Assembly (NCBI GenBank): GCA_963575745.1
Contig: CAUYUJ010003406.1
Location: forward strand, 15,001-79,000
Source: Prorocentrum cordatum
Lineage: Eukaryota; Sar; Dinophyceae; Prorocentrales; Prorocentraceae
Length of the DNA stretch: 64,000 nucleotides
Direction: 5' to 3'
Below, in pieces: positions 8,195-22,698 of the stretch. A model generated the notes under the pieces. It saw nothing but the letters and a program-made list of their open reading frames with translations, did no database searches and was not told the DNA's origin. The translations under genes were made by a program, and so were the position numbers. Every line of letters starts with the position of its first letter. Position 1 is the first letter of the stretch.

Positions 8195-8329
8195 GAGCCG
8201 CTCCCGCCGAGCGAGAAGGGCTCCTCCATCGAGGCTGTCATCCTGTCGCTCAAGCAGTTTGTGGACGAGTTCGGGGAGGTCGACGCAGCTGCCGCCTCCA
8301 CGGCGGTGTCGACGGACCTCGAAAGCAGT

Positions 8330-11300
8330 ATGACAGCCTCATTGAGGAGTCCTTCTCGTTCGGGGAGCAGACAGGCAGCGCATGCAGCCGCAGGTCGCCA
8401 GCGGCTATCACCAAAGGGGGGGAAGGGAGTGGGCTCCGTCCTCCTGGGCATCATCATCATTTTTTGCGTGTTCATTCGCTTCCACTACAGAGTTCATTGC
8501 TTGAACCGTTCGGGAACTGTGGAGTGCTGTACGTTTTTCGTCTGCCCAGAGAAGCGTACCGGGGGCCTCCAACTTTGGCGTGTACGTGGACGTGCTGGTC
8601 GGGATCGACACCAGCAACGTCGTCGACGGGAGCCTTGTCGTCGCTTTCCTGAGCACCGGTCAGAGGACTGCGAGGGCGCCAAGGACAACTACGAGGACCC
8701 CTTCCTCGGAGGAGGGCCCGGCGCGGCTGCTGCCGCCAGGAGGCGGCGCGCGCAGCGGGAGGCCGATCCCGCCCTTCAGGCAGTGATGCCGGCGAGGATT
8801 CTGACCTCGCTCATGCCATCTGGCCCTGCCCCACGCCCTGCACGGGGGACGCGGCAGCAAGCCCTCCCGCGCAACAGCCCCCAGCAACCGCCCCCCCGGG
8901 CGCAGCAGCAGCCGCAGCAGCAGCAGCCGCGGCAGCGACCCAGGCAGTCGAACTACCAGGAGCCGCCCACGCTGATCCGACTGCGCCAGCTCATGATTCT
9001 GGTGGACCAGGGCCTCAAGCCGACTGAGGCGCAGGTCACCGCCAAACTTCGAGAAGTCCTCGATGGTAACGGGACCGGCCAGGGGCAGCCGACGGGCTCG
9101 GCCCCTGGAGCCGGCCGTGCTCCGAGAGGGTTCACACGAGGTGCCAACCTCAACGTGGAGAAAAACCTGAAGGTGTGGACGCAGCCTTGGGGCGAGGCCA
9201 AGTTCCAGGCTGCCGCTGCACTCCGTGACGCTGCTCCACCGGCGGCGGGACCCCACGTGGTGGTGTGCCAGACCCCGGACGAACACCAAGAAGCCATCAG
9301 ATGGAAGAAAGCCGCGGCCTGCGCGCAGCCGTGCACATACATCGTCTTCAACGCTGATCGCGAAGACATGCAGGACGAAGTGCTCGTGGAGGGTGCCCGC
9401 GGCCCAGTCCCGGTCCGCTGCCAGATCGTGCAGTCTGGTGCCCAGGCGCCGGCGCGGTCGGGGCTCCCCTCGGGCATGAAAGATGATACGCCAGAAGTGG
9501 CGGCCGCCGCCGCCCCCAACGCCACCATCTACAGGCTTGCAGCTATCAAGGCCTGCACCGATGGTGCCATCGTCGCAAAAGCTGAGGGCGAACCAGGTGC
9601 ACTGGGGAATATCGTGTTACCTAAAGAACTCTCACCGCTGGTGGTCCAGACAAGGGCTGCCATGAATTATTCAGATGTGGTCACCGCCCTGGTTGTCGTG
9701 AAGGAAGCGGACCAGGACAAGATCAACCAAGCGTCGCTGCCTCGGAGGTGCGTGTGCTCTCCGCAGGGGTCCCGTGACATCCCACGCTACGTCACCAAGC
9801 TCCCAGAGGAGACGGATGCAGCGTACTGGGCACGAGTCGACCGGAACAGGATGGCGGCGCAGGGCCGTCTCGTGTACCGGAAGAGCGACAAGGCCTACCT
9901 GGGCATCATTGCCAACAAAGCCATCACCGACACGGTGGAAACCATTCGCTGGATTCTCAAGCGGGCCCCCCCCAACTGGACCTCCCCTGAGGACGTCGAG
10001 ACGTGGGCCGAGGCTCGTGGGTTCACCAAGTTTGCCAATTGCGCCCGGATGGGCAAAAAGATCTGGAGCTTCCACGCCGAAGCTGCTAGTGTGGCGAGCT
10101 CTTTCACTTTCCAGTCTGGCATCTTTGTCGCGCAGGCCGGGCGCGGTGGAGGCGATCGCAAGAAGCCCGACAAGGCAGCCCCGCCCGCTGGGCCTAGACA
10201 GCGCCGGGGCGCCCCGCCCCCCCGGGCGCGCGCTGCCCAAGCAGATTCCGACATGGATGAGGATGAAGCGGGCGCTTCGGCAGAGGCTCCGCCAGCTGCG
10301 GCAGGGGCTCTGGCGCTCACCGACGCTGGTGCGGCCGCCACTGGTGGCCCGGAGCAACCAGCCGCCAAGGCGGCCCCGGCGCAGAAAAGCCGGAAAAAGG
10401 AAGCGCCCCTCCCTTGGGCAAACTTGTTCGTGGAGGAGGCGTGTGACGGCCAGGGGGATTGCCAGTGCATTGCACTAGCAAAGGCTCTCAACCACCTCGC
10501 CCCGACGAGAAAGGCCCCGGGCCCGAATGACTTCAAGCCGGGTGGGCGTCTCCAGGCCAGCTTGCGGATGCAGGCCGCCGCGGAGATCAGCGACAACAAG
10601 GAGAAGTACGACAAGGCCACTTCCGAGTACACGGAGAAGGTGGCGACCACGGGCACGATGGGGGACAGCCTCACGCTGTGCGCCCTCGCTGCTGCCCTGA
10701 GGGTTGACATCATGATCTGGCGGTGGTCCGAGGAGGAGCGGAAGTGGTCCCTCTTCACCACTGCTGCGGCCAACAAGCCAAAGAAGAAGAAGGCCCTCTG
10801 GGTCGCGCTGAAGAACCGCCACTACACGTGGCTAAAGCCCCTCAGCGTGGAGGTTGGCGACAAGCAGCGCCTGGACATGCAAACGGCGGCCCTGGCCGTG
10901 CCGAGGGGCCGACGGGGCTTCTCGGGGGCAGGAAAGGCTTTCCCATCCCCGTCCAAGAGCGTGCGGAGCCTGCTGGGCCTGGACAGCAACACCTCGAAGG
11001 GCGTGTCCGCCAGTAAGAAAGCCCCCACCTCCAAGGGCAAAGCAGCAAAGCGCAGCGCGGCCGCCTCCACGGCCGACGTTGCGGAGCTGCTGGGCCTCGA
11101 CGCAGCCCCGGCGGCGGCAGCTGCCGACAGCGGTTGGATGAAATATGAACACCTCAAGTGCACGTGCAGATGGACCCCTGACCTGGCGCCCTCCGTTCCC
11201 GTGGGCACGCAAGCACGACGCCACTTCAAGGCCTGCAAGGACGAGCCGCCCCCGAAGCTGGGCCCGAGCCGCAACAACCTGAAAGCGCGGGCCATGGGCG

Positions 11301-11791
11301 CCAAGGGCGTGGAAGTCCGACAAGCCAAAGCATTCGACAACTACGTCACCTGGAAAGCTGGGCGGCCTGCGGACGTGCAGGCCTCCGTCTGCGAGTACAC
11401 CTCGGCCGGGTGCTACACGAAGGTCACGCCCCGCATGAACCTCGCGTACTATACATGCACGAAGTGTGGGATGGGCAAGCGCCTCTCGGCAGCCAAGATC
11501 ACCCTCTGTAAGGCTCGCGGGGTGGCCGTGGGCAAGACGCAAGGAGGCCAGATGCTCAAGAAGCTCCTTGGCCAGAACCGCTATCGGCAGCGCCTGGCGG
11601 TATTGTCCAAGGCCTCCGCCAAGCTCAAAGCTCTGCCGCTGGCCCAGAGGCCGGTGTCCCGGACCCCCGAGTACGCGAGACGCAAGGCGTTGGAGTACTA
11701 CCAGGCGGACCCCGCCAAGTTTGCTCTGCAACGCAGGACCTACGCGAGGAAGCACGCCAGGGCCAAGGCCCGGCGCGCCCAGGGCCATTGA
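8330..11791 (+). CDS. Long ORF with OTU-like cysteine protease domain; probable retroelement ORF1
   Basis: About 1,150 codons are open on the plus strand. The first in-frame ATG is 8330 (ATG 8786 is an alternative); the frame extends upstream into the LINE-B tail. The N-terminus holds EDPFLGGG and RRRRAQRE, closely matching the N-terminus of the LINE-B endonuclease ORF. A Gln/Pro-rich linker follows, then an unrecognised central region. At about residues 695-845 lies an OTU-like fold: CDGQGDCQCIALAKAL resembles the DGxC...A catalytic loop, GDSLTLCALAAALRVDIMIW the core strands, and NRHYTWL the catalytic His. Cys-rich segments (CTCRW...HFKAC; CTKCGMGK) and a basic tail follow. OTU enzymes cleave ubiquitin or isopeptide bonds; some LINE clades carry them. 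Function here is inferred only. Confidence 0.6.
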   Translation: MTASLRSPSRSGSRQAAHAAAGRQRLSPKGGKGVGSVLLGIIIIFCVFIRFHYRVHCLNRSGTVECCTFFVCPEKRTGGLQLWRVRGRAGRDRHQQRRRREPCRRFPEHRSEDCEGAKDNYEDPFLGGGPGAAAAARRRRAQREADPALQAVMPARILTSLMPSGPAPRPARGTRQQALPRNSPQQPPPRAQQQPQQQQPRQRPRQSNYQEPPTLIRLRQLMILVDQGLKPTEAQVTAKLREVLDGNGTGQGQPTGSAPGAGRAPRGFTRGANLNVEKNLKVWTQPWGEAKFQAAAALRDAAPPAAGPHVVVCQTPDEHQEAIRWKKAAACAQPCTYIVFNADREDMQDEVLVEGARGPVPVRCQIVQSGAQAPARSGLPSGMKDDTPEVAAAAAPNATIYRLAAIKACTDGAIVAKAEGEPGALGNIVLPKELSPLVVQTRAAMNYSDVVTALVVVKEADQDKINQASLPRRCVCSPQGSRDIPRYVTKLPEETDAAYWARVDRNRMAAQGRLVYRKSDKAYLGIIANKAITDTVETIRWILKRAPPNWTSPEDVETWAEARGFTKFANCARMGKKIWSFHAEAASVASSFTFQSGIFVAQAGRGGGDRKKPDKAAPPAGPRQRRGAPPPRARAAQADSDMDEDEAGASAEAPPAAAGALALTDAGAAATGGPEQPAAKAAPAQKSRKKEAPLPWANLFVEEACDGQGDCQCIALAKALNHLAPTRKAPGPNDFKPGGRLQASLRMQAAAEISDNKEKYDKATSEYTEKVATTGTMGDSLTLCALAAALRVDIMIWRWSEEERKWSLFTTAAANKPKKKKALWVALKNRHYTWLKPLSVEVGDKQRLDMQTAALAVPRGRRGFSGAGKAFPSPSKSVRSLLGLDSNTSKGVSASKKAPTSKGKAAKRSAAASTADVAELLGLDAAPAAAAADSGWMKYEHLKCTCRWTPDLAPSVPVGTQARRHFKACKDEPPPKLGPSRNNLKARAMGAKGVEVRQAKAFDNYVTWKAGRPADVQASVCEYTSAGCYTKVTPRMNLAYYTCTKCGMGKRLSAAKITLCKARGVAVGKTQGGQMLKKLLGQNRYRQRLAVLSKASAKLKALPLAQRPVSRTPEYARRKALEYYQADPAKFALQRRTYARKHARAKARRAQGH

Positions 11792-11890
11792 CTAGGCCCC
11801 GACAGAAACCTCCCAGCCGGCAGCACGCCCGGCGATGGGGAGGCCGCCAGGCCGGCGGGCCCCTGCAGGCAGCCGGCCTTCACCGACATG

Positions 11891-11998
11891 ATGTTAGTGC
11901 GTGCACGGGAATGATGAGAAAGGTTTTTCGGGTGTCGTGTCCAGGCTTGGCCTCTCGCGTTGCTCATCGCAACCGCTCGGGCTCAAGCGTCAAAGGCA
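11891..11998 (+). repeat. DIRS split direct repeat A1
   Basis: This 108 bp begins ATGTTAGTGCGTGCACGG and ends GCGTCAAAGGCA, and is identical by eye to 18285-18392. It contains CTCGGGCTCAAG; the GGCTCAAG part equals the 3' end of the dinoflagellate spliced leader, which may be chance. Confidence 0.9.
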
Positions 11999-12429
11999 TG
12001 GGTATGTCGCTCGATGGCCGTCACGCCACCCCAGTTCGTACTCTTCGCCTGGAATGCCGTGAATGCCCCCTCGCTCTCCGGCTGCCTGGCCGGCTCCGCT
12101 GCTGGGCGCTCCGCGCCAGCAGCCCCAGGCCGCGCGGCGGCCGTCGGCTGGTGTTGGGAGCCTCCGTGGGACTGCTCCTGCTCCTGCTCCTGCCCGTCGT
12201 CAGCGGCGCCCGAGCCACCGGGCCCGCCCTTGCTGGGTGCCTCGGTGCGGCTCGCGGCCGACGGAGCCGCGGCGATCGAGGTCGTCTGGCCGTGGGTGGG
12301 AGGCCTCGCGGTCTCGCCCGACCTCGCTCTCGCCGGCTGCCTGGGGATCGGGATCCTCGGGGTGTTCGTCGTGCTGTATTGGTGCCGCCATGCTGCACTG
12401 CCCGACTCGACGCAGCTTTGTGTGATCCA

Positions 12430-12741
12430 ATGGTGCAAGACTGGGTGCTGGGGACGCAGCGGCTCGTGTGGTTCGTCACTGATCCTGGTTTCAAGCACGA
12501 GCGCGTCATCGTGTGGCCGTGTCACGAGGCGTCTTGGATCGAGTACACGGGCAGCGGCGACCTGTATGGGGAGGAGGAGAAGGATCTGGACAAGGTGTAC
12601 CTCATGACGGCGGGCCAGCCGCCGAGGTCTCTGCCGGACTACGGGGCGAAGGTCGTGCCGTTCGCGAAGCTCCCGACGGACGACGAGCTACGCGGGCTGA
12701 TCGCGGAGGCCCACGCCGAGGTGGCGTCTCTGTGGGAGTGA
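12430..12741 (+). CDS. Upstream Gag-like ORF of the DIRS element
   Basis: ATG at 12430 opens about 103 codons ending at TGA 12739-12741. The peptide looks globular (MVQDWVLGTQRLVWFVTDPG, YTGSGDLYGEEEKDLDKVYL, LPTDDELRGLIAEAH) and lies 13 bp before the larger Gag-like ORF in another frame. It may be a separate small ORF or the N-terminal part of Gag, reached by a frameshift. The region 12000-12430 between repeat A1 and this ORF is GC-rich and open in several frames, with a hydrophobic stretch, but no domain was recognised. Confidence 0.45.
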   Translation: MVQDWVLGTQRLVWFVTDPGFKHERVIVWPCHEASWIEYTGSGDLYGEEEKDLDKVYLMTAGQPPRSLPDYGAKVVPFAKLPTDDELRGLIAEAHAEVASLWE

Positions 12742-12754
12742 GCCCGATCGCCAC

Positions 12755-13930
12755 GTGCCGGCGGACCCGACCTACTTCTTGTCGGAGGAAGGACGCCAGC
12801 ACCCGCTCCTTCGCCACCGCCTCCCGGGCAAGCAGGTGAGGCGCGTTGGCAAGGAAGGCAACCCACCCGTCGCCGATGCGGGCGCTGGAGCCGCCGAGTC
12901 TGGCGGCGTCGGGGATGCGGGCGACGGCGTGCTGGCCGCCGACGGCGAGCGTCACCGCTGGCTGGTCACCGAGCCTGGTCTGATCTGGGAGTTGGGCGCC
13001 CTCGTGCCGCACGCATGCGCCACGACCAGGCTGGGTGACCGCGGCGTCGCCGACATCGACGGCGAGACGGAGCCAGTGCAGAGCGTTCCCGAGGCCGACG
13101 TGGGCGACTACGCGTCCATGAAGACCTCGGCCTACGAGGTAGCGGTCCGCGACTTCGACGGCACGCCCACTGACTTCGGGCGGTGTGCCGGGATCGCGCC
13201 GAGCCACGCGCCTCCTCGCGGCGGGGGGGCCGAGCCGACCGCCCCTGCAGATGCCACCGAGCCGAGCGATGTTCGCACGTTGTGGGTGGACACGGACGCC
13301 ATGAGCGTCCGGTTCATGTCTTGGCGCAATGTGGTCACGGAGAGCTACCCCACGGTATGGACCGACAGGCCTGGGGAGGGGCCGTCTAGCCTAATGTATA
13401 TCCTCAGGCATTCTGATCGGCGCAGCCGCAACATCAGGATGTGGCTCGACCTTGGGTCCCGCTCGAACAACCTCGGGCCGGGCAATTGGGTCATGCACGA
13501 GCTCTCCGTCCTCTGCGAGGTCTTCTACGTGGGGCGCCCCTACGACCAGCTCAACATGCCGTCGCTGGTGAGCTTCAAGAATATAGGGCGCCGCATCCAG
13601 AGTATCGCGGACGCGTACTCGGGTGACCCCTTTCGGCCGCAGTGGGCTAACGCGAGGCTCTACTCCGGCGTGGGCTCTGCGGTGGACATGGTCGCGCCCG
13701 AGCTGAAGCACTACGTGGCCAAGAGGGCCAAGGACGAGATCGAGGTCGAGTCCAAGCGGGTGCAAGCCCGCAGCCTTCCGATCGCTGCCGACGCTGTCGC
13801 TGCTGGCAGTCTTCCTGCCGCTGGACGCGGTCCACCTGTCGCCGCCGCGGCGGGCCAGCCCTCCGAAGGATCGGGCCATGGAGCCCCGAAGGGAGGCAAA
13901 GGCGCCGCTGCCGCGGCGGAGACTCAATGA
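12755..13930 (+). CDS. Gag-like ORF of the DIRS element
   Basis: Open for 391 codons from a GTG at 12755; an upstream frameshift from the preceding ORF is an alternative origin. The central part is globular and rich in aromatic residues (LWVDTDAMSVRFMSWRNVV, NWVMHELSVLCEVFYVGRPY, NIGRRIQSIADAYSGDPFRP). The C-terminus is Ala/Gly-rich with a basic GAPKGGKG. No catalytic domain is seen, and by position it is the structural (Gag) protein. Its TGA (13928-13930) overlaps the ATG (13927-13929) of the pol ORF, giving ATGA. This suggests termination-reinitiation as the way pol is translated. Confidence 0.6.
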   Translation: MPADPTYFLSEEGRQHPLLRHRLPGKQVRRVGKEGNPPVADAGAGAAESGGVGDAGDGVLAADGERHRWLVTEPGLIWELGALVPHACATTRLGDRGVADIDGETEPVQSVPEADVGDYASMKTSAYEVAVRDFDGTPTDFGRCAGIAPSHAPPRGGGAEPTAPADATEPSDVRTLWVDTDAMSVRFMSWRNVVTESYPTVWTDRPGEGPSSLMYILRHSDRRSRNIRMWLDLGSRSNNLGPGNWVMHELSVLCEVFYVGRPYDQLNMPSLVSFKNIGRRIQSIADAYSGDPFRPQWANARLYSGVGSAVDMVAPELKHYVAKRAKDEIEVESKRVQARSLPIAADAVAAGSLPAAGRGPPVAAAAGQPSEGSGHGAPKGGKGAAAAAETQ

Positions 13931-16900
13931 GTGATATGACCCTCGGCGGTGGGACTGGCCCATCCTCCGCCGTTCGCCTTCCAGGGCTTGCACGCGGATC
14001 CGCGGAGATCTTCCCGCTGCCCGACGACTCCAGCCTCGTCGCGGAATTCTGGATCCACCTTCAGGGGCGTGCCCAGCGCCGGTTCGTGAGGGACTGGCGG
14101 CAGTGTGTGCGTTCACTAAATTGGTTGTGGGGCGCTGGACATCGTGAGGCCGCTCGACGTGCTCAAGGCGACGTCCATCCATACCGTTTTCGACTTCAAC
14201 GGGAGGTGCTGGTGCGAATCGCCCAGGGGGTCCAGATCTACCTGGACCCACCCTCCGACCTCTCTCCGAAGGAGGCCTTCCAGGGGCTACTTCGAGGCCG
14301 CGGGGTCTACGACACCGAGACGGCCTACACTACCCTGGCACCCTGCCAACGGGGCGCGGTTTCTCTTCCCTGTGACGTCTCGACGGCCCCGGCTGTGGGA
14401 ACCTTGGTCACGGGGCGCGCCCTCGAGTATCTGGTAGAGGCAGAGGAGCAGATGATCAGGACTGGTGCTGAGGTCCAGCTTGACCGTGAGACGAATGGTG
14501 AAATCAAGATCTACACCGACCCCCTGCTCGCCAATAGCCGCCGCCGGTACTCCACTTTCGTGAAGGACCTGAAGCGGAAAGGCTTGGTGGGCTTCACCCG
14601 CGATCCCAAGGAGTTCGTCGGTGTTTTCTTCGTCTGGAAGAAGGAGCGCGCCTCCATGAGGATGGTGCTCGACTGTCGCCGCTCCAATCAACGTTTCGTG
14701 ACCCCTCCTGGAGTCGAGCTGCTGTCGACAGAGGGGCTTGGTCGGATCGAGTGCGACACGGAACAGACCGGCACGTTGCCCATCTTCTTGGGTAAAGCTG
14801 ACGTGAAGGATTGCTTCCACCGCATGATGTTCGGCAACCACCTCTCCAAGTACTTCTGCTACCCGGGCGGCCTGGCCAAGGAGTTTGGCATCGTCGGGCA
14901 GCTGGTGGAAGGGGTGCCCGCTCGCGCGGACGACTACCTCTGGCCGTGCGCCCTCGCGCTGCCCATGGGCTGGACGTGGTCGCTCTACTTCGCTCAGGTG
15001 GCCAACCTCGGCCTGGTGGAACGGGTCCCCGCGGTCGCGTCGAGTTGCGCGGCTACCGATCGGGGGCCTCCTATCGTGCTGTCCCCGACGTCCTCCTGGC
15101 ACTACGTATACGTCGACAATGTGGGGCTCTTGTCGTTCGACGCCTCCTACGTCAAGGGGGCTCTGGCGGACACCATCGCGGCCTTCGACGCCGCGGGCCT
15201 CATCATGCATGACATCTCGGTGGACTCCGACGCGGCCGAGGCGCTGGGAGTGACGCTCGATTGCCAGAAGCACCAGACCCTCGTCAACCATCGGCGCTAC
15301 TGGAAGGTCAGACTGGGCCTCCGGTGGGCCCTCTCCCTGCGGCGCCTGGCGGGGCGAGAGCTCGAAGTATTGCTTGGCCACTGTACATTCGTTGGCTTGA
15401 TGTGCCGGGAGACCCTGTCCGTGTGGCACACCGTCTACACTTTCATCCGCGAGCGGTACTGGGCCAAGAGCGACGTGTGGGAGTCCGCGCGTCAGGAGCT
15501 CGAGTGCTTTCTCGGGCTGATGCCGCTCCTTCGGTCCGAGTGGGATCGGCCGTGGCTCACGCAGGTACTGTCCGTGGACGCCAGCCCGTACGGCTGGGGG
15601 ATTGCCAGCTCCGAGTTCGGAGTGTTGACGGTGAAAAAGCAGGGCAGGATCCTCGAACGATCTCGTTTCCGTCGTCTCGGAGGGTTGCCGGCTCGGGCCA
15701 GTGCCCTCGCTGCCGCGGGGTTCGTCTACTCACCCACCACCGATCGTTGGCAGGTCGACGATGAGAAAGAGCGTGACCCCTCGGACGCTCGGGAGGCTGG
15801 TGCCTGGGAGATGCGTGAGGACTTCCCCGAGATTCCTGGGGCCCTCCTCCACGGGGATCGGTGGCGCTTGATTTTGCATGGCAAGTGGGCCTACTCCGAG
15901 GATATCCTGATTCTTGAGGCCCGCGTCCTGGTCAAAGCTGTCGCAAGAGTTTGTAATTGTGTTCCAGGTGGATTCTGCAGAGTATTGTTATTGGGAGATA
16001 ATATGTCAGTTATATTAGCTTGTGAAAGATTTCGGGCCCGCAGCTTCGGGCTCTTGGTGCAGATCAGACGAATCGCGGCCTACGCTCTGGCCCGAGGGTC
16101 TCGATTTGGGTTCAGGTGGCATCCCTCAGAGCTCAACAGTAGCGACGCTGGGTCCCGTATCTACGACCCCAACTACGACTCCACGAAGGATCTCACTCGC
16201 CTGGTGGCTGACGGACACGGACCCGGAGACGTCCTGCCTCAGCCTGCGGATCTACCTCGATCCGACGGCGTGCCGGCTCAAGTTCCCGAATCGCCCGAGA
16301 CCCCTGATTCTCTCGCCTGCACCGTATTCCACGATTGCCATGAAGCGGACTCGCACCCTGGAGGCGCCGAGCCACACCATCGCTGGCCAGGAGAGCCGGC
16401 GCACGACGGCCAGTGCGCGTCCGACGACGATTTCCTGTCCGCCTTCAGCGACCCCGGGGCCAACGAGGACGCGAACCCTGCCGCGACCGGAGATGCGCTC
16501 GAAGCTGGATACTGGGAAGGTGCCCATGGCCAGAGGGTCTCTGGTGACTCTGGCGGCCAAGGGGCCCGCGTGGGCTACAGCAGCAGTCGCGGCCGCTGCC
16601 ACCGGCGCGGCCGCCGACGTGGACAGCGATGGCACTACTACGGCCGGCGAGATGGAGAAGGGTCTCGACGGCAGGTCGCCCGCTCCCCTGCCGGTCTGGC
16701 ATGCCATCGCGGTGGGGTTTGCGAGGCGGGGCATGCTTGCCATGGGTCTCGCCGTGATGAACGGAGTCAGCTGCTACCTCAGGCCCTCAGAGCTCCTCAA
16801 CCTTACCTCGGACAACCTGGTGGCCCCGACGTCGCCGGTGTCGCGGTACTGGAGCCTCCTTTTGCATCCTTCGGAGGAGGAAAAGAGGAGCAAGACTGGG

Positions 16901-18093
16901 GGTGCGGACGACTCGCCGATCATCGACTCGGCCTACATGCTGTCGTGGGTGCACGACCTCCTCCAGGTCTTGAAGGAGAAGGGCGGCCGGCTGTGGTCCT
17001 TCGATTATTTTACTTTCTTGGCGGAATTCAAGACTGTCGCCAAGACGCTGACCATGCCGCACCTTGTACCGTACCGGATGAGACACTCATGGCCGTCGAT
17101 GGATCGCCTCAAGCCAGATCGCAGCCAAAAGGAGTGTCAGAAGCGCGGAAGGGGGAAGAGCTGGAAGAGCCTCGTGCGCTACGAGAAGAGCGCCCGTCTC
17201 GGAAGCTTCTGGAACGAGCTCCCTGCCGAGATACAAGCACACATGCGCCTGTGCGAAGACCAGCTCGTCGAGTTCCTCTGGTCGCCCGAGCTTGCCCCAA
17301 GGCCACCGCCCGTCCGCGGCTAGCCAAGGACGGCACCTACATGGCCGACCTGTTCTCTGGCTCAGGCAAGGTGGCTCGGGCAGTCACGCGGCTGGGGTTC
17401 TCAGCTAAGGCCTGGGACATCATCCACGGGCCCAACCATGACATCACGGACCCGGCTGTGCTTCGCCTATTGCTCTCGGACATCCGTGACGGCAAGATTT
17501 TCGCCGCCATGATCGCCCTCCCTTGCACCTCGCTGACTATCGCTCGAGATAGGACTTTTCAGATACGCTCACGCACTCAGCCATGGGGGACTGACCTGAC
17601 CGATGCTACCGATCGGGACCGAGCCTCACTCGAGACTGGTAACAAGATAATTCGGGCCGTAATTCGCATTCTCAGACATCTCAATCGCTACAAAATTCAG
17701 TGGATACTTGAAAATCCGTCAATTTCCCGCCTGTGGTTCATCCCAGAGATATTGGCTCTGTGCAGCCGGGCGCGTGCTGAATGGCGACTTACAGATTTCT
17801 GTCAATGGGGTACGCCGTGGCGAAAAAGGACATGGCTAGTTTGTGGTAATATGTATCCTGAGGACAGTTGCTCACTGGACAGAGTCTGCACTGGAAAAGC
17901 TGGTATGTGCTCTCGCACCCTCCGCCGTCATATCGAGCTGAGTGGCCGCAATGACCAGAATGTTTTGTGGACCTCAATCGCCCAGCCTTACCCCTCTCGC
18001 CTTGCCACTGCTCTGGCTAAGTCTCTCGCAGCTAAGAAGCACGCCTCCTGCTCGTACAACTCGAGCGGCCCCGTCCGTACCGGGGCCCAATGA
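13927..18093 (+). CDS. DIRS pol ORF: reverse transcriptase, RNase H and C-terminal cytosine methyltransferase-like domain
   Basis: An unbroken 1,388-codon frame. RT occupies roughly residues 200-450: RMVLDCRRSNQRF (fingers), FLGKADVKDCFHRM (motif A), ALPMGWTWSLYFAQ (motif B) and YVYVDNVGL (motif C, YVDN rather than YxDD). RNase H is at about residues 550-755: LSVDASPYGWGIASSEFG, LLLGDNMSVIL and WHPSELNSSDAGSR. Residues about 810-1130 are low complexity in this frame because the recombinase is encoded in the +1 frame. Residues about 1135-1380 resemble a C5 cytosine methyltransferase: YMADLFSGSGKVARAV (motif I), LPCTSLTIARDR (PC of motif IV) and WILENPSISRLW (ENP, motif VI-like). RT-RH-MT order in one ORF overlapped by the YR ORF matches the DIRS-1 plan, although the Dictyostelium methylase is a different type. 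Confidence 0.8.
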   Translation: MSDMTLGGGTGPSSAVRLPGLARGSAEIFPLPDDSSLVAEFWIHLQGRAQRRFVRDWRQCVRSLNWLWGAGHREAARRAQGDVHPYRFRLQREVLVRIAQGVQIYLDPPSDLSPKEAFQGLLRGRGVYDTETAYTTLAPCQRGAVSLPCDVSTAPAVGTLVTGRALEYLVEAEEQMIRTGAEVQLDRETNGEIKIYTDPLLANSRRRYSTFVKDLKRKGLVGFTRDPKEFVGVFFVWKKERASMRMVLDCRRSNQRFVTPPGVELLSTEGLGRIECDTEQTGTLPIFLGKADVKDCFHRMMFGNHLSKYFCYPGGLAKEFGIVGQLVEGVPARADDYLWPCALALPMGWTWSLYFAQVANLGLVERVPAVASSCAATDRGPPIVLSPTSSWHYVYVDNVGLLSFDASYVKGALADTIAAFDAAGLIMHDISVDSDAAEALGVTLDCQKHQTLVNHRRYWKVRLGLRWALSLRRLAGRELEVLLGHCTFVGLMCRETLSVWHTVYTFIRERYWAKSDVWESARQELECFLGLMPLLRSEWDRPWLTQVLSVDASPYGWGIASSEFGVLTVKKQGRILERSRFRRLGGLPARASALAAAGFVYSPTTDRWQVDDEKERDPSDAREAGAWEMREDFPEIPGALLHGDRWRLILHGKWAYSEDILILEARVLVKAVARVCNCVPGGFCRVLLLGDNMSVILACERFRARSFGLLVQIRRIAAYALARGSRFGFRWHPSELNSSDAGSRIYDPNYDSTKDLTRLVADGHGPGDVLPQPADLPRSDGVPAQVPESPETPDSLACTVFHDCHEADSHPGGAEPHHRWPGEPAHDGQCASDDDFLSAFSDPGANEDANPAATGDALEAGYWEGAHGQRVSGDSGGQGARVGYSSSRGRCHRRGRRRGQRWHYYGRRDGEGSRRQVARSPAGLACHRGGVCEAGHACHGSRRDERSQLLPQALRAPQPYLGQPGGPDVAGVAVLEPPFASFGGGKEEQDWGCGRLADHRLGLHAVVGARPPPGLEGEGRPAVVLRLFYFLGGIQDCRQDADHAAPCTVPDETLMAVDGSPQARSQPKGVSEARKGEELEEPRALREERPSRKLLERAPCRDTSTHAPVRRPARRVPLVARACPKATARPRLAKDGTYMADLFSGSGKVARAVTRLGFSAKAWDIIHGPNHDITDPAVLRLLLSDIRDGKIFAAMIALPCTSLTIARDRTFQIRSRTQPWGTDLTDATDRDRASLETGNKIIRAVIRILRHLNRYKIQWILENPSISRLWFIPEILALCSRARAEWRLTDFCQWGTPWRKRTWLVCGNMYPEDSCSLDRVCTGKAGMCSRTLRRHIELSGRNDQNVLWTSIAQPYPSRLATALAKSLAAKKHASCSYNSSGPVRTGAQ
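16340..17323 (+). CDS. Tyrosine recombinase ORF nested in the pol ORF (+1 frame)
   Basis: The frame is open from 16022; ATG 16340 is a plausible start and the stop is TAG 17321-17323. It lies entirely inside the pol ORF in another frame. The catalytic half is recognisable: NGVSCYLRPSELLNLT holds the first active-site Arg, VPYRMRHSWPS is the box-II region (Tyr where HxxR usually has His), and RGRGKSWKSLVRYEKSARL holds the nucleophilic Tyr in the VRYEK context typical of DIRS-type recombinases. The first 60 or so residues look disordered. The enzyme would integrate the circular cDNA. The methyltransferase core begins just after its stop. Confidence 0.75.
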   Translation: MKRTRTLEAPSHTIAGQESRRTTASARPTTISCPPSATPGPTRTRTLPRPEMRSKLDTGKVPMARGSLVTLAAKGPAWATAAVAAAATGAAADVDSDGTTTAGEMEKGLDGRSPAPLPVWHAIAVGFARRGMLAMGLAVMNGVSCYLRPSELLNLTSDNLVAPTSPVSRYWSLLLHPSEEEKRSKTGGADDSPIIDSAYMLSWVHDLLQVLKEKGGRLWSFDYFTFLAEFKTVAKTLTMPHLVPYRMRHSWPSMDRLKPDRSQKECQKRGRGKSWKSLVRYEKSARLGSFWNELPAEIQAHMRLCEDQLVEFLWSPELAPRPPPVRG

Positions 18094-18177
18094 GGCTCAG
18101 GCCCTGTTTGCTTTCGCTCTTCCCCTCCTCTCTTCCCCTCCTTCGCCCCTGTGAACCCTTTCAACTCGGGATGTTTG

Positions 18178-18242
18178 GAATGCCTTGGACGTGTGATTCT
18201 AACGATCTCACGTCGTCCCAGCTGTGTGTTGTAACCCTGTCA
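18178..18242 (+). repeat. DIRS split direct repeat B1
   Basis: This 65 bp begins GAATGCCTTGGACGTGTG and is identical by eye to 18445-18509. It starts 84 bp after the pol stop; 42 unique bases separate it from A2. Confidence 0.9.
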
Positions 18243-18284
18243 GATAGTAGCAGATCCTCTCCGCTGGAAAAACACGGTCTCATT

Positions 18285-18392
18285 ATGTTAGTGCGTGCAC
18301 GGGAATGATGAGAAAGGTTTTTCGGGTGTCGTGTCCAGGCTTGGCCTCTCGCGTTGCTCATCGCAACCGCTCGGGCTCAAGCGTCAAAGGCA
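18285..18392 (+). repeat. DIRS split direct repeat A2
   Basis: Second copy of the 108-bp A repeat (see 11891-11998), between B1 and B2. 52 bases separate it from B2. Confidence 0.9.
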
Positions 18393-18444
18393 CCCGCCCT
18401 TTCGAACAATGTTCTCCCATCCCATACTCCCATTATACTTTGCA

Positions 18445-18509
18445 GAATGCCTTGGACGTGTGATTCTAACGATCTCACGTCGTCCCAGCTGTGTGTTGTA
18501 ACCCTGTCA
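18445..18509 (+). repeat. DIRS split direct repeat B2 (right terminus)
   Basis: Second copy of the 65-bp B repeat. Its end is taken as the right boundary of the element; the LINE-B 5' monomer sequence starts within a few bases. Confidence 0.9.
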
Positions 18510-18589
18510 TCATGATCATCCACTTTTTCACAATGTTTATAGTTTTCCTCTCCATCATCTTCTTCCTTATCGCGGGGGAGGGGGGGACC

Positions 18590-19430
18590 AGCAGTGCCAT
18601 GCACGTGTTTATCCATTTCCTCTTCGTCCTTATTGCGGGGAAGGGAGAGATCAGCAGGGTCATGCACGTATTCACCCATGCCACCTTCACTTTCATGCAC
18701 GTGGTTATCCATTTCTTCTTCGTCTTTATCGCGGGGGAGGGGGAGATTAGCAGGGTCATGCACGTGATTATCAATTTCACCTTCACTTTCCTCCTCATCC
18801 TCCTCGTCCCTACCGGGTGCGACGAGGGCCTGAGGCAGAAGCAACTTGACGCTCATGGGGGCAAGAGAGCTCGTGCACAGTTTCGACTCCGGCCGAGTCC
18901 ACAGCAGATGCCCCCCCACGATCCATCGGCCACGCGGCCGGGACAGCACGTACTCATCGATTGCACTCTCACTTTCGGAATTTACACCTTCTTCATTATC
19001 ATGTACGTGTTTATCCATCTCCTTTTCGTCCTCATCGCGGGGGAGGGGGAGATCAGCAGGGTCATGCACGTGTTTATCCAGTTCACTTTCACTTTCCTCC
19101 TCATCCTCCGCGTCCCCACCGGGTGCGACGAGGGCCAGAGGCAGAAGCAACTTGACGTTCATGGGGGCAAGAGAGCTCGTGCACAGTTTCGACTCCGGCC
19201 GATTCCACAGCGGCCGGGACAACACGTATTCATCCATTGCACTTCCACTCTTAGCATTCACACCGTCTTCATTATCATGCACGTGTTTATCCATTTCTTT
19301 TTCGTCCTCTTCGCGGGGGAGGGGCAGATCAGCAGGGTCATGCACGTGTTTATCCAGTTCATTTTTACTTTCCTCCTCGTCCTCCTCGTCCCCACCGGGT
19401 GCGACGAGGGCCAGAGGCAGAAGCGACTTG
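18590..19430. repeat. Tandem 5' monomers of LINE-B, about 276-306 bp, with internal subrepeats
   Basis: CCGGGACA blocks recur at 18938 and 19214 (276 bp) and GCAAGAGAGC blocks at 18861 and 19167 (306 bp; one unit carries an extra 30 bp). Each monomer includes two or three subrepeats around TCATGCACGTGTTTATCC with a GGGGGAGGGGGAGATCAGC spacer; CACGTG is an E-box-like palindrome. By analogy with monomeric LINE promoters this could be the element's promoter. The minus strand is open throughout and would encode acidic repeats (DKHVHDPADLPLPR). Confidence 0.7.
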
Positions 19431-19524
19431 ACGTTCATCATTGCCCCCCTTTCCATCCTCATGGTCATCATGGGTGTGAAGGGCCACGAGACGGTGTTGC
19501 AGCTGAAGATCCCTTCCTGGGAAG

Positions 19525-19994
19525 GGGGTCGGTCGTCCCACCGGCGCCGGGCTGCACGCCTGGCCAAGGAAACCGCGGCGGCTGCCGGGGCTCCACAAAC
19601 CCCGGCCGCCCATGCAGAAGTTCCGCCTGGCCGCAAGCTCCGGGTGGCCACTCTCAACGTGACCTCTGCCACCACTGCACGCATCAAGGCAATGCTGGAA
19701 GCAGAACTGGTCGAGTCTGCGGACATCATCTGCTTGCAGGAGGTCCGCCACACCACAGTGACCCCACGCTGGCTCATGAGGCTGGCATCCCAACGGGGAT
19801 GGGGTATAAAGCTGTCGACGCCTTCCCCCGTGGACCAACGGGGCACGCACGTCCAGGGCGGCACCGCCATCATGTGGAGGCGCTCCTTGGGGAAGCTTTC
19901 CACGTACGCCCACCCGAAAGACCATCGACTGGTGGGACTCCTGTTTGCGGGAGGTGCAGTCGTTTCCGCCTACGGGCCTCGAATGGGTCGATAA
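19525..19994 (+). pseudogene. LINE-B copy 2 endonuclease (frame broken downstream)
   Basis: Same fold as 4776-5357: KLRVATLNV, ADIICLQEVRHT, GGTAIMWRRSLG and VVSAYGP. The 17-bp deletion immediately after VVSAYGP throws the frame into a stop at 19992-19994. The rest of the domain, including an intact GDLNWREM catalytic motif, continues in the RT frame. One extra base near 19515 also separates the core from its N-terminal EDPFLGGG segment. Confidence 0.7.
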
Positions 19995-22698
19995 AGCTGC
20001 GCAGTGGATGGACGAGAAGTTCCACGACAAGCCGCAGGTGCTCATTGGGGACCTGAACTGGAGGGAGATGTGCCGCCAGCTCGTCGCCGACGCCTGGCAG
20101 ATCGCCGACATGCCCTCCCCAACCACACATGCGAATACCAAGCCTACCCGAGGGCTGGCCCAGGGCTGCTCCATCCAGGCCGCTGGAGTGGAAGCCGTGG
20201 CCGGTGTCCCGCACCACAAGCTGGTTCTCTTCGAGGTGGACGTGCCGCTGCCGCCGCGGCCCGCCCAGGAACGCCTGAAACGTACAGCTTTCTACAGTTG
20301 GAATGACAATGCTATTATGCTCCCGGCCGATGCGGGAGACATCGAGTCCGCCGTCGATGCCGAGTACCCTGTCCTGGAGGCCTCGTTCCCGCTGTTGGAC
20401 AGGTGGAAGCGGTGGCACGCTCGGGCTGAGACTGTGGCCCGCCTGGCGTGCAGCCGGGACATCATGGAAATGACTCGCACTGGGGGGCGGCCGAAAGCTT
20501 CCCCGCCCAAGTCCCGCCGGTGCGCCGATTCGGCCCAGCACCGGGTGGATGAAACGATCACTCTTCGACAGCTGCGGCGGCTACACCGCCGGTTCACCCA
20601 CGGGAAGACTGCGGGGGTGGACTCGGAACGCCTGTCACCCAAGCACTTGCACGACTTCGGCGTGGCAGCCCGTCAGGGAGCCCTCCACGCAAAGTGGTCC
20701 GACGCCCCGCTGTTGTGGCCGACGTACGCCGCCGCAGTCGACATCATCAATGCCAGCATCACCAAGGAGGAGCGGAAGGGCACGGACGCCCGCGGCCGCC
20801 AATGGAAACAACGGTTCACCGAGATCACTCGGGACACTTGGGCCGCCGCCGGCCCTGTCATCAAGCCGGGCCCCGAGGCGCCGACCTTCACCCCCGACTC
20901 CATGCGGGCGGAGTGGGAGCCGATCTGGAACCCGCCAGACTACAACCCGGATGCCATCCGGGCAGCTTGGTGCACCTACGCGGACAAGGCCGTCTTCCCG
21001 CAGTGTGGGGTTGCGGTTGAATGGATCCCCGAGTACGACGACTTCTCTGCCGCCTTCCAGAAATGCGGCGGGGCGGCGGGCCTCGACGGCTGGTCAGCCG
21101 CAGAGGTCAAAGCTTTGACACGGCACTTCGAGTTCTTGAAGATGGAGCTCTACACGTTGTGGGTGGCAACCACACGCGCCGCTGGTGACCCGGCGGGCCT
21201 CCCGGAGGCCCTCGTCGACTTCCTCTTCTGCTGGCGGGTGGTGGGGATCCCCAAGCCCAAGACCGACGCCTCCCGGCCGATCTCGGTGGCGTCATACCTC
21301 GTACGGACGTGGCTCAGTGCATGCGCGGCCATCGCGCCCCACCCAGTGGACACGCAGTGGGCCACACGCCCCGGAGTCTCCGTGGTACACGCCATCTCTT
21401 CTTGGCTGAGTGCGGCGGCGGCTGCTGACGAAGGCTGTGAGCAAGACCTCACAAAAGCGTACGACCGAATCGACCACCTGCTGGCGACAGAGGCCCTGGA
21501 CCGTGAAGGTCGGCCTCGGCACCTGCAGTGTCTGTTCAGATGTTCCTGGCGGGGCCCCCGGCACTGCCAGGTGGAGGGAGCGCTGAGCTCTTCCCCAATC
21601 CGCCCCTGCTGCAGCCTCCCGCAGGGCGGGTCTGACGCGCCGGCCGGCATGGTGGCCACCTTGGTCCCGTGGCAGCCCCAAGACGTGACACCCTTCGCTT
21701 TCATGGATGACAGGTCCATGACCGTCGGCGCGCCGGCGGCCAGCACCAAGCTCCGCGATGCCCTCGTGTACACGCAAGACTTCGACACGGCCGCCAACTT
21801 CGCCGAGAACGTTGGCAAGAGACAACACTGGACAAAGACCGGAGGTGAACGAGTTGAGCACTTGGGTATCTCCGCTGTGCCGGGCTCTCCAGAGGAGCCC
21901 ATCGAGCCTCGCTTCGGGTGGGACCCCGTGCGAACGACGCTACGCCGCCTGGGCACACTCCCCGGGTCCGCCAAAGTCAGAGAGTCCCTGACAGCGGCTT
22001 ACGCTTCGCCGATGTGGTTGTGGGCAGCACCTGTGGTGGCGCCGCCCCCGCCAGACATCACGCCCCTGGTCATGAAGGCCGTGCTGCGCACCGGATGTTC
22101 CTGGTGGTGCCGGGGCCGCTGGTGGGCCACCAGACTTTACCTACACCCGCTCTACGGGTCAATTCTTCGCGGACTCAAGGTTGTTCTTGATCCTGAATTC
22201 TGTTGGAGTCCCCATGTGGAGACGCAGATACGTACCGCCGTGGATCGGCTGGGGCTCGGCTTTCGAGACTACGACCATTACTTTGGCCTGTGCCTGGAGG
22301 TGCTCCCGGGGGACGACCCGCGGGTCCAGAAGGTCACAGACAGGGTACGCCAGGGGCGCTCCTATTTCTGGACGCGGTCCGAAGAAGCGCAGCATTGCGT
22401 GAGGCTGGTGTGCCGCATTCGCTGTCTGCAGCAGTGCGCCTCTAATTTGCCGCAACGACGTGGATGGCGTGGAGAAGGTCGACGTGGAGGCCTCCAGCGA
22501 CCCCCGATGGAAGAAGTTCTCGGAGAGCCTGCCGGCCGCCGAGAAGCAGGCTCTGAACATCTTCCGGTGTGGAGCCATACGCACCCAGACCCGCATCAGC
22601 CAGAACACCAGGTGTGCGCTGTGCGGAGCGCTCCACCCGAGTGCCCGGCACCTATGGAGCGAATGCAGTGGGATGGACGAAGAACGCCGGCTTCTTAG
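19975..22698 (+). pseudogene. LINE-B copy 2 endonuclease 3' part plus reverse transcriptase
   Basis: One frame carries the last part of the endonuclease (GLEWVDKAAQW, VLIGDLNWREM) straight into the RT. This shows that endonuclease and RT belong to one ORF2 in the ancestral element. RT blocks are GIPKPKTDASRPISV, CEQDLTKAYDRIDH, SLPQGGSDAP and FAFMDDRSMT. The frame is good to about 22440, after which the 4-bp insertion shifts it to a stop at 22696-22698. A few residues differ from copy 1, most of them isolated substitutions. Confidence 0.75.

Follow-up and report, generated by a model that had tools for sequence, protein, structure and literature searches.

The stretch studied here, 64,000 nucleotides of Prorocentrum cordatum DNA (assembly GCA_963575745.1, contig CAUYUJ010003406.1, positions 15,001 to 79,000 of the forward strand; hereafter the window), carries a DIRS-order retrotransposon at its positions 11,891 to 18,509. 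With its identical repeats and open pol frame, this copy raises the question of whether it moves with its own proteins, as an earlier note on this DNA supposed in calling it nearly intact and recently active. Judged from its sequence, it is a 3'-truncated PAT-like DIRS retrotransposon inside a LINE-like element, and it belongs to one (D) of two branches of related copies, D and F. Comparison of the copies indicates that in D the proteins ORF0, Gag and tyrosine recombinase (YR) retain little or no amino-acid constraint, while the reverse transcriptase (RT)-RNase H (RH) region and the methyltransferase-like (MT) domain have stayed constrained. D elements are probably mobilized with Gag and recombinase supplied in trans by F-type elements and with RT-RH-MT acting mainly in cis; a further component, reinitiation after gag, is less sure. 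The features of this copy, in window coordinates, are:

11891..11998, + strand: A1, left terminal repeat, which opens with the AT crossover core
12014..12607, + strand: ORF0 remnant, a small reading frame upstream of gag with a putative start Met, hydrophobic near its C-terminus by eye
12431..13930, + strand: putative gag open reading frame (ORF), so named for its position; in this copy the frame breaks near 12740
13927..13930, + strand: ATGA, in which the gag stop TGA overlaps the first pol Met
13651..18093, + strand: pol frame, open from stop to stop (1480 codons, first Met at 13927), with RT, RNase H, a YR-overprinted stretch and MT
14626..15126, + strand: RT motifs ending in YVDN
15568..16158, + strand: RNase H-like motifs VDAS, GDN and NSSD
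16340..17323, + strand: YR ORF, in another frame within pol between RNase H and MT; open over 16019-17323, start Met putative
16677..16678, + strand: junction of a 393-nt in-frame deletion common to 15/15 aligned D copies
17341..18090, + strand: methyltransferase-like domain (DLFSG, PCT, ENP) at the end of pol
18178..18284, + strand: B1, full 107-nt B repeat, contiguous with A2
18285..18392, + strand: A2
18445..18509, + strand: B2, truncated to the first 65 of 107 nt

We searched the 4.13-Gb source assembly (21,875 contigs) with a 214-nt query from the left end of the element, scored 40 matches among 95 candidates, and fetched 32 further copies that include a 5' end, together with two partial 3' copies. 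Pooled with the window stretch, the fetched copies have a GC content of 61%. The closest named protein relatives come from Prorocentrum cordatum, Symbiodinium, Durusdinium and Amphidinium, and one YR match is labelled as a SAR202 bacterial metagenome-assembled genome. A 27-row alignment holds 15 D copies, 11 F copies and L039 as outgroup, and omits the partial copies L011, L025, L036-L038 and L040-L042. In each of four within-family region trees the D rows group as a single clade supported at 100/100 (15 rows in the gag, YR and MT trees, and 14 in the RT-RH tree, where L014 is deleted). F copies encode a full YR plus ORF0, Gag and RT-RH-MT, all under purifying selection.

The YR of this copy lacks a 131-codon N-terminal segment. 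The corresponding 393 nt are missing in 19 of 31 informative copies (window included), present in 11, and partial in L039. All 32 aligned YR homologues have sequence within the segment (32 of 41 matches were aligned; for RT 20 of 35, giving 21 rows with this copy, and for MT 7 of 7), and one homologue, predicted at a pLDDT of 92.1, has a helical N-terminal domain over the missing part, so the full form looks ancestral and the loss derived. We also considered the segment as a spliceosomal intron and rejected this: no GT/GC/GA-AG ends fit the junction by eye, and F copies show it to be constrained coding sequence (changes per codon position, 27/8/3). The clade and the common junction indicate that the aligned D copies descend from a single ancestor that had lost the YR N-terminal domain. 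In the part that remains, several presumably catalytic residues are affected in D: K292 is kept in 4/15 D and 11/11 F copies, G358 in 1/15 and 11/11, W379 in 11/15 and 11/11, and Y388 in 11/15 and 10/11; R255, R355 and H356 are kept in all 26. This copy has G358W and W379G, both at nearly invariant positions. The phage integrase family PF00589 was matched by 6 of 30 YR homologues (best 2.3e-4). D copies are, on these alignments, predicted to be unable to make a normal recombinase.

The two branches differ sharply in where their coding changes fall. By codon position (window position mod 3 = 1/2/0), gag has 76/21/24 changes in F and 106/120/145 in D, and YR has 34/7/7 and 55/70/90, a contrast with P values of 1e-10 for gag and 1.5e-8 for YR. 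No such contrast is seen in RT-RH (P 0.41) or MT (P 0.46), with third-position changes of 105/199 in F and 175/307 in D for RT, and 70/110 and 96/171 for MT. Maximum-likelihood (ML) omega values agree; they come from a coarse grid on which seven of eight fits put the best kappa at its upper limit of 4.5, with ranges giving the values within 1.92 log-likelihood (lnL) units, and the gag, YR, RT-RH and MT fits leave out L014 (large deletion) and L019 (rearranged). Omega for gag is 0.10 (0.10-0.15) in F and 0.70 (0.6-0.8) in D, and for ORF0 0.2 (0.15-0.3) and 0.7 (0.7-1.0); for YR it is 0.15 (0.1-0.2) and 0.9 (0.7-1.2), values that are approximate because YR overlaps pol, a caveat that belongs with those weighed below. 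RT-RH gives 0.2 in F and 0.2 (0.2-0.3) in D, and MT 0.2 (0.15-0.2) and 0.3.

Pairwise comparison of the D1 sublineage, to which this copy belongs, with D2 yields dN/dS ratios of 0.92 for gag, 0.77 for YR, 0.15 for RT-RH and 0.11 for MT. Synonymous divergence is similar in all four genes (dS 0.16-0.25), which rules out mutation rate as the cause. Between F and L012 the same ratios are 0.17, 0.09, 0.14 and 0.08. In the Gag of L012, changes are found at 2% of the sites where F and L039 agree vs 11% of the others, and in the D lineages both kinds of site change about equally often (16 vs 22%, 29 vs 30% and 28 vs 34%). YR of D2 and D2b showed no significant difference between such sites.

Though hardly constrained as a protein, D gag has kept its frame clear of new stops. 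Its 464 different substitutions produced no new stop vs 11.2 expected (P 1.4e-5); the other two frames over the same region acquired 8 (14.1 expected) and 19 (16.1 expected), and eight non-coding frame tests over all regions gave 76 new stops vs 75.3 expected. New stops in D number 3 in RT vs 9.9 expected, 1 in MT vs 6.6, 1 in the pol frame across the YR catalytic part vs 7.0, and 1 in the N-terminal stretch of the YR frame vs 2.0. The ATGA overlap of gag and pol is found in 26/26 rows with sequence there; in L019, where the gag end is rearranged, ATGA is kept.

Precise recombinase-type ends on both sides are found in 13 of the 15 aligned D copies. Given such ends on elements that lack a normal recombinase and whose Gag is hardly constrained, trans-supply by F fits best. 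D elements would rely mainly on their own RT-RH to reverse transcribe their RNA, would use their own MT, and would borrow Gag and recombinase from F-type elements. The borrowed recombinase would then cross the B-A junction of a circle (CATT-AT-GTTAG) with a target AT and leave no longer duplication. Less surely, the D gag frame may be kept free of stops since pol would be reached by termination-reinitiation at the ATGA overlap. A bolder generalization, which we offer tentatively and with more doubt than assent, is that DIRS proteins may be sorted by site of action: RT-RNase H-MT kept for its work in cis on its own RNA or cDNA; Gag, recombinase and ORF0 dispensable as goods shared in trans; D a long-lived half-element that depends on F; and the D gag a ribosome conveyor to ATGA whose sequence does not matter.

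Several results weigh against supply in trans. None of the 11 aligned F copies, the proposed donors, is open in all frames. In D, omega for Gag has not reached 1 (2ΔlnL 11.3), and in the YR of D1 changes hit 14 of 152 sites where F and L039 agree (9%) vs 11 of 51 others (22%; P 0.027). The D YR frame gained a single new stop over 16679-17320 vs 8.6 expected though its amino acids drift, and gag-pol reinitiation does not explain this. The copies are not all independent, as the pairs L018/L019, L028/L029 and L037/L038 share left flanks. Within D1, dN/dS rises to 0.64 for RT and 0.79 for MT (three pairs, few changes), compared with 0.41 and 0.29 within D2 and 0.27 and 0.23 within F. RT and MT are clearly constrained between D sublineages; in the youngest D1 copies their constraint is weak, which may reflect decay after insertion, or D1 may be losing RT and MT too.

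How well do other explanations account for these data? A variant of the same scheme, which we think possible though on balance unlikely, is that the D gag and YR frames stay open to let the RNA escape nonsense surveillance rather than for reinitiation. This accounts for stop avoidance in both frames, though it does not predict the conserved ATGA overlap. It is improbable that D is a divergent autonomous lineage whose Gag and short recombinase work and evolve fast under relaxed or diversifying selection: the shortage of new stops in gag (0) and YR (1), a Gag omega of 0.70 rather than 1 and the residual constraint on D1 recombinase sites are what it would lead one to see, but D Gag alters conserved and variable sites alike, its N-terminal part is read in another frame in D2 copies, and the recombinase is missing its N-terminal domain and, in many copies, K292, G358, W379 or Y388. 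Age alone, with D copies simply older pseudogenes, is very improbable; the gag and YR trees do show longer branches for D, and the RT and MT ratios within D1 point the same way, but RT-RH and MT of the same copies hold an omega of 0.2-0.3 overall, dS is alike across genes, and gag and YR changes are common to copies at different loci. Least credible of all is an autonomous, nearly intact, recently active element, which the open pol frame, the identical A and B pairs and the precise left end might suggest and which the broken gag frame, the deleted right terminus and a recombinase without its N-terminal domain and with two nearly invariant residues changed contradict. We thus retain mobilization of D by F-type proteins in trans as the probable explanation.

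The A pair (11887-11998 and 18281-18392) has one mismatch, among its four leading bases, and is identical at 108/108 positions from 11891 and 18285; a 65-nt pair (18178-18242 and 18445-18509) is identical at 65/65. The two pairs interleave as A1...B1-A2-B2, as the earlier note had described. Such inverted pairs as were reported measure 30 nt or less and do not lie at the element's two ends. The proposed left edge at 11891 held up: homology begins within 11885-11892 in all 32 fetched 5'-end copies, at 11891 or 11892 in 27, with left flanks that differ apart from the three sharing pairs. The termini, through which D is mobile, are conserved, with 14/108 A1 sites changed vs 272/698 in 12000-12700. 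L028 and L029 have an identical 662-nt left flank and unrelated right flanks, a sign of rearrangement or of assembly.

The right edge proposed at 18509, with a 65-bp B, had to be moved. A terminal B is present in 29 copies (window included), one of which is cut by the end of the fetched locus. In 26 of the 28 scorable copies, among them L041 with altered last bases, it runs on for about 42 nt past the position matching 18509 before new flank begins, and only in this copy and L013 does it stop there. As the same 42 nt lie between the 65-nt B1 and A2 of this copy, B is 107 nt long and B1 abuts A2. This copy is 3'-truncated, with B2 cut short and about 8 nt of target gone as well; homology past 18509 in other genome copies, which the earlier note would have taken as telling against its model, stems from that truncation and leaves the repeat model standing. 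Among the 40 candidates scored out of 95, A and B did not turn up as unrelated dispersed repeats either: each of the seven A-only matches (C3406, C14897, C13785, C8730, C3858, C14453 and C6602) sits at the 3' end of a DIRS copy. L026 and L027 have the form A1-ORFs-B without A2-B2, the expected product of B1 x B2 recombination, and L011 and L042, about 23 kb apart on contig C3858, together resemble one element.

"Nearly intact" therefore does not describe this copy, with gag broken near 12740, a recombinase that lacks its N-terminal part and carries G358W and W379G, and a truncated B2. Of the content that had been listed, RT, RNase H, tyrosine recombinase and a methyltransferase-like domain are indeed inside, with the gag frame broken and the recombinase deleted at its N-terminus; the pol frame is unbroken as claimed, with no stop across 13651-18093. 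Recent mobility of the DNA is plausible, as a passenger (A1/A2 identical at 107/107, and the first 65 nt of B identical), and activity as an unbroken element is unsupported for this copy's own proteins.

The left flank of this copy has one other genome match, L043, a second copy of the surrounding LINE-like element, 96% similar and without the insertion. This empty site reads GACATG-AT-GTTCATTG-TCATGATC at the element's position; insertion was thus at AT, and a later loss took the terminal part of B2 together with about 8 nt of target sequence. ATGAT, which had been proposed as the recombination core, is excluded, since both ATGATs are already in the empty site, and the core is AT. At 30 left ends (L019 and L029 dropped as duplicates), GTTAG follows the core in all 30; the core starts with A (20), T (7) or C (3), and its second base is T in 29. 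Of 24 right ends, 22 have CTCATT ahead of the core, and most of the 24 show AT as the core (23 with A, 21 with T). The right side of the target is T-rich, with T at +8 in 20/24 (P 5e-11, for a position chosen post hoc). L043 and the junctions of other copies show integration without target-site duplication beyond the short core. The internal B1|A2 junction, CATT-AT-GTTAG, equals both element ends joined, which is consistent with a circular intermediate.

The host LINE-like element occupies 8195-11791 and 18510-22698. Its upstream ORF has a weak OTU-protease match (PF02338, E 0.00075) and its downstream ORF an RT match (PF00078, E 0.0003), both below cut-off, and diverged tandem repeats lie between the two at about 18555-19438. 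Scans of the window for tRNAs and with Rfam at gathering thresholds found nothing.

The identity of the constrained domains rests largely on relatives. The usual RT active-site motif is YxDD; here it reads YVDN (15109-15126), with V, D and N invariant in the 21-row alignment, and RVT_1 was matched in 11 of the 21 rows (best 3.1e-9). Pfam scans of this copy's pol, YR and gag frames gave no credible domain, neither RVT_1 nor PF00589, and sequence searches of the PDB gave no meaningful match. VDAS, GDN and NSSD we take to be RNase H motifs, and DLFSG, PCT and ENP methyltransferase motifs. The MT-like domain has an AlphaFold2 pLDDT of 80.9, and the C5 methylase family PF00145 matched 2 of 8 MT rows below cut-off (best relative E 0.0034).

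The D lineage offers a ready-made genetic experiment on the role of each DIRS protein, above all the methyltransferase. Decay of Gag and recombinase with RT-RH and MT kept under selection suggests that MT is required by its own element and probably acts on it. D gag, conserved as an open frame and hardly as a protein, makes translational coupling testable. The locus is also a warning that identical repeats and an open pol frame do not prove autonomy.

Among known groups, the element has the DIRS-order combination of RT and RNase H with a tyrosine recombinase in place of a DDE integrase (domain matches being in relatives and this copy's YR decayed) and PAT-like split direct repeats, A1 / B1-A2-B2. 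The earlier assignment to a Ngaro/PAT type thus stands for the DIRS order and the PAT-type repeats and fails for Ngaro proper, which lacks an MT domain, unlike the constrained MT-like domain that ends pol here, if that domain is a methyltransferase. No Gag zinc finger as in Pat1 was seen, with no CCHC in nine printed Gag translations by eye. YR lies on the same (+) strand as pol, unlike the opposite-strand recombinase of Kangaroo, and the repeats are direct, unlike the inverted terminal repeats and internal complementary region of DIRS1-like elements. An RT-RH-MT ORF overlapping a YR ORF is already known from DIRS-1, according to the portion of PMC5633606 consulted. PAT elements of the DIRS group also have split direct repeats and YR on the RT strand, and an MT domain to compare with the MT-like domain here, in the sections consulted of PMC4157794. 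SymbioDIRS-Dnmt3 of Symbiodinium is a close relative in design: the consulted part of PMC5890265 gives it A-coding-B-A-B repeats, a methyltransferase in the pol ORF and a recombinase in a separate ORF. Both are dinoflagellate DIRS elements with the same repeat order, a methyltransferase (here methyltransferase-like) domain in pol and YR in its own ORF; they differ in host and in that MT here falls below the Pfam C5 cut-off, and that part of the paper describes no branch keeping only RT-RH-MT under selection. The titles and abstract openings listed from an open-access library name no DIRS lineage of the D type.

Two parallels concern the way of life. ORF1-less Ngaro type 2b variants of Cafeteria, as excerpts of PMC8547959 present them, occur without a Gag-like ORF at several host loci and share the repeat order (A1-[ORFs]-B1A2B2); they belong to the Ngaro superfamily, and a defective YR is not mentioned in those excerpts. 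The nearest parallel, in way of life and not in membership, is BARE2 of barley, a Copia long terminal repeat (LTR) subfamily that, in the consulted passages of PMC3735527, cannot make Gag, has its RNA packaged in BARE1 particles and is thought to have its pol translated. Those passages do not mention loss of integrase; in the D branch, recombinase and ORF0 decay along with Gag.

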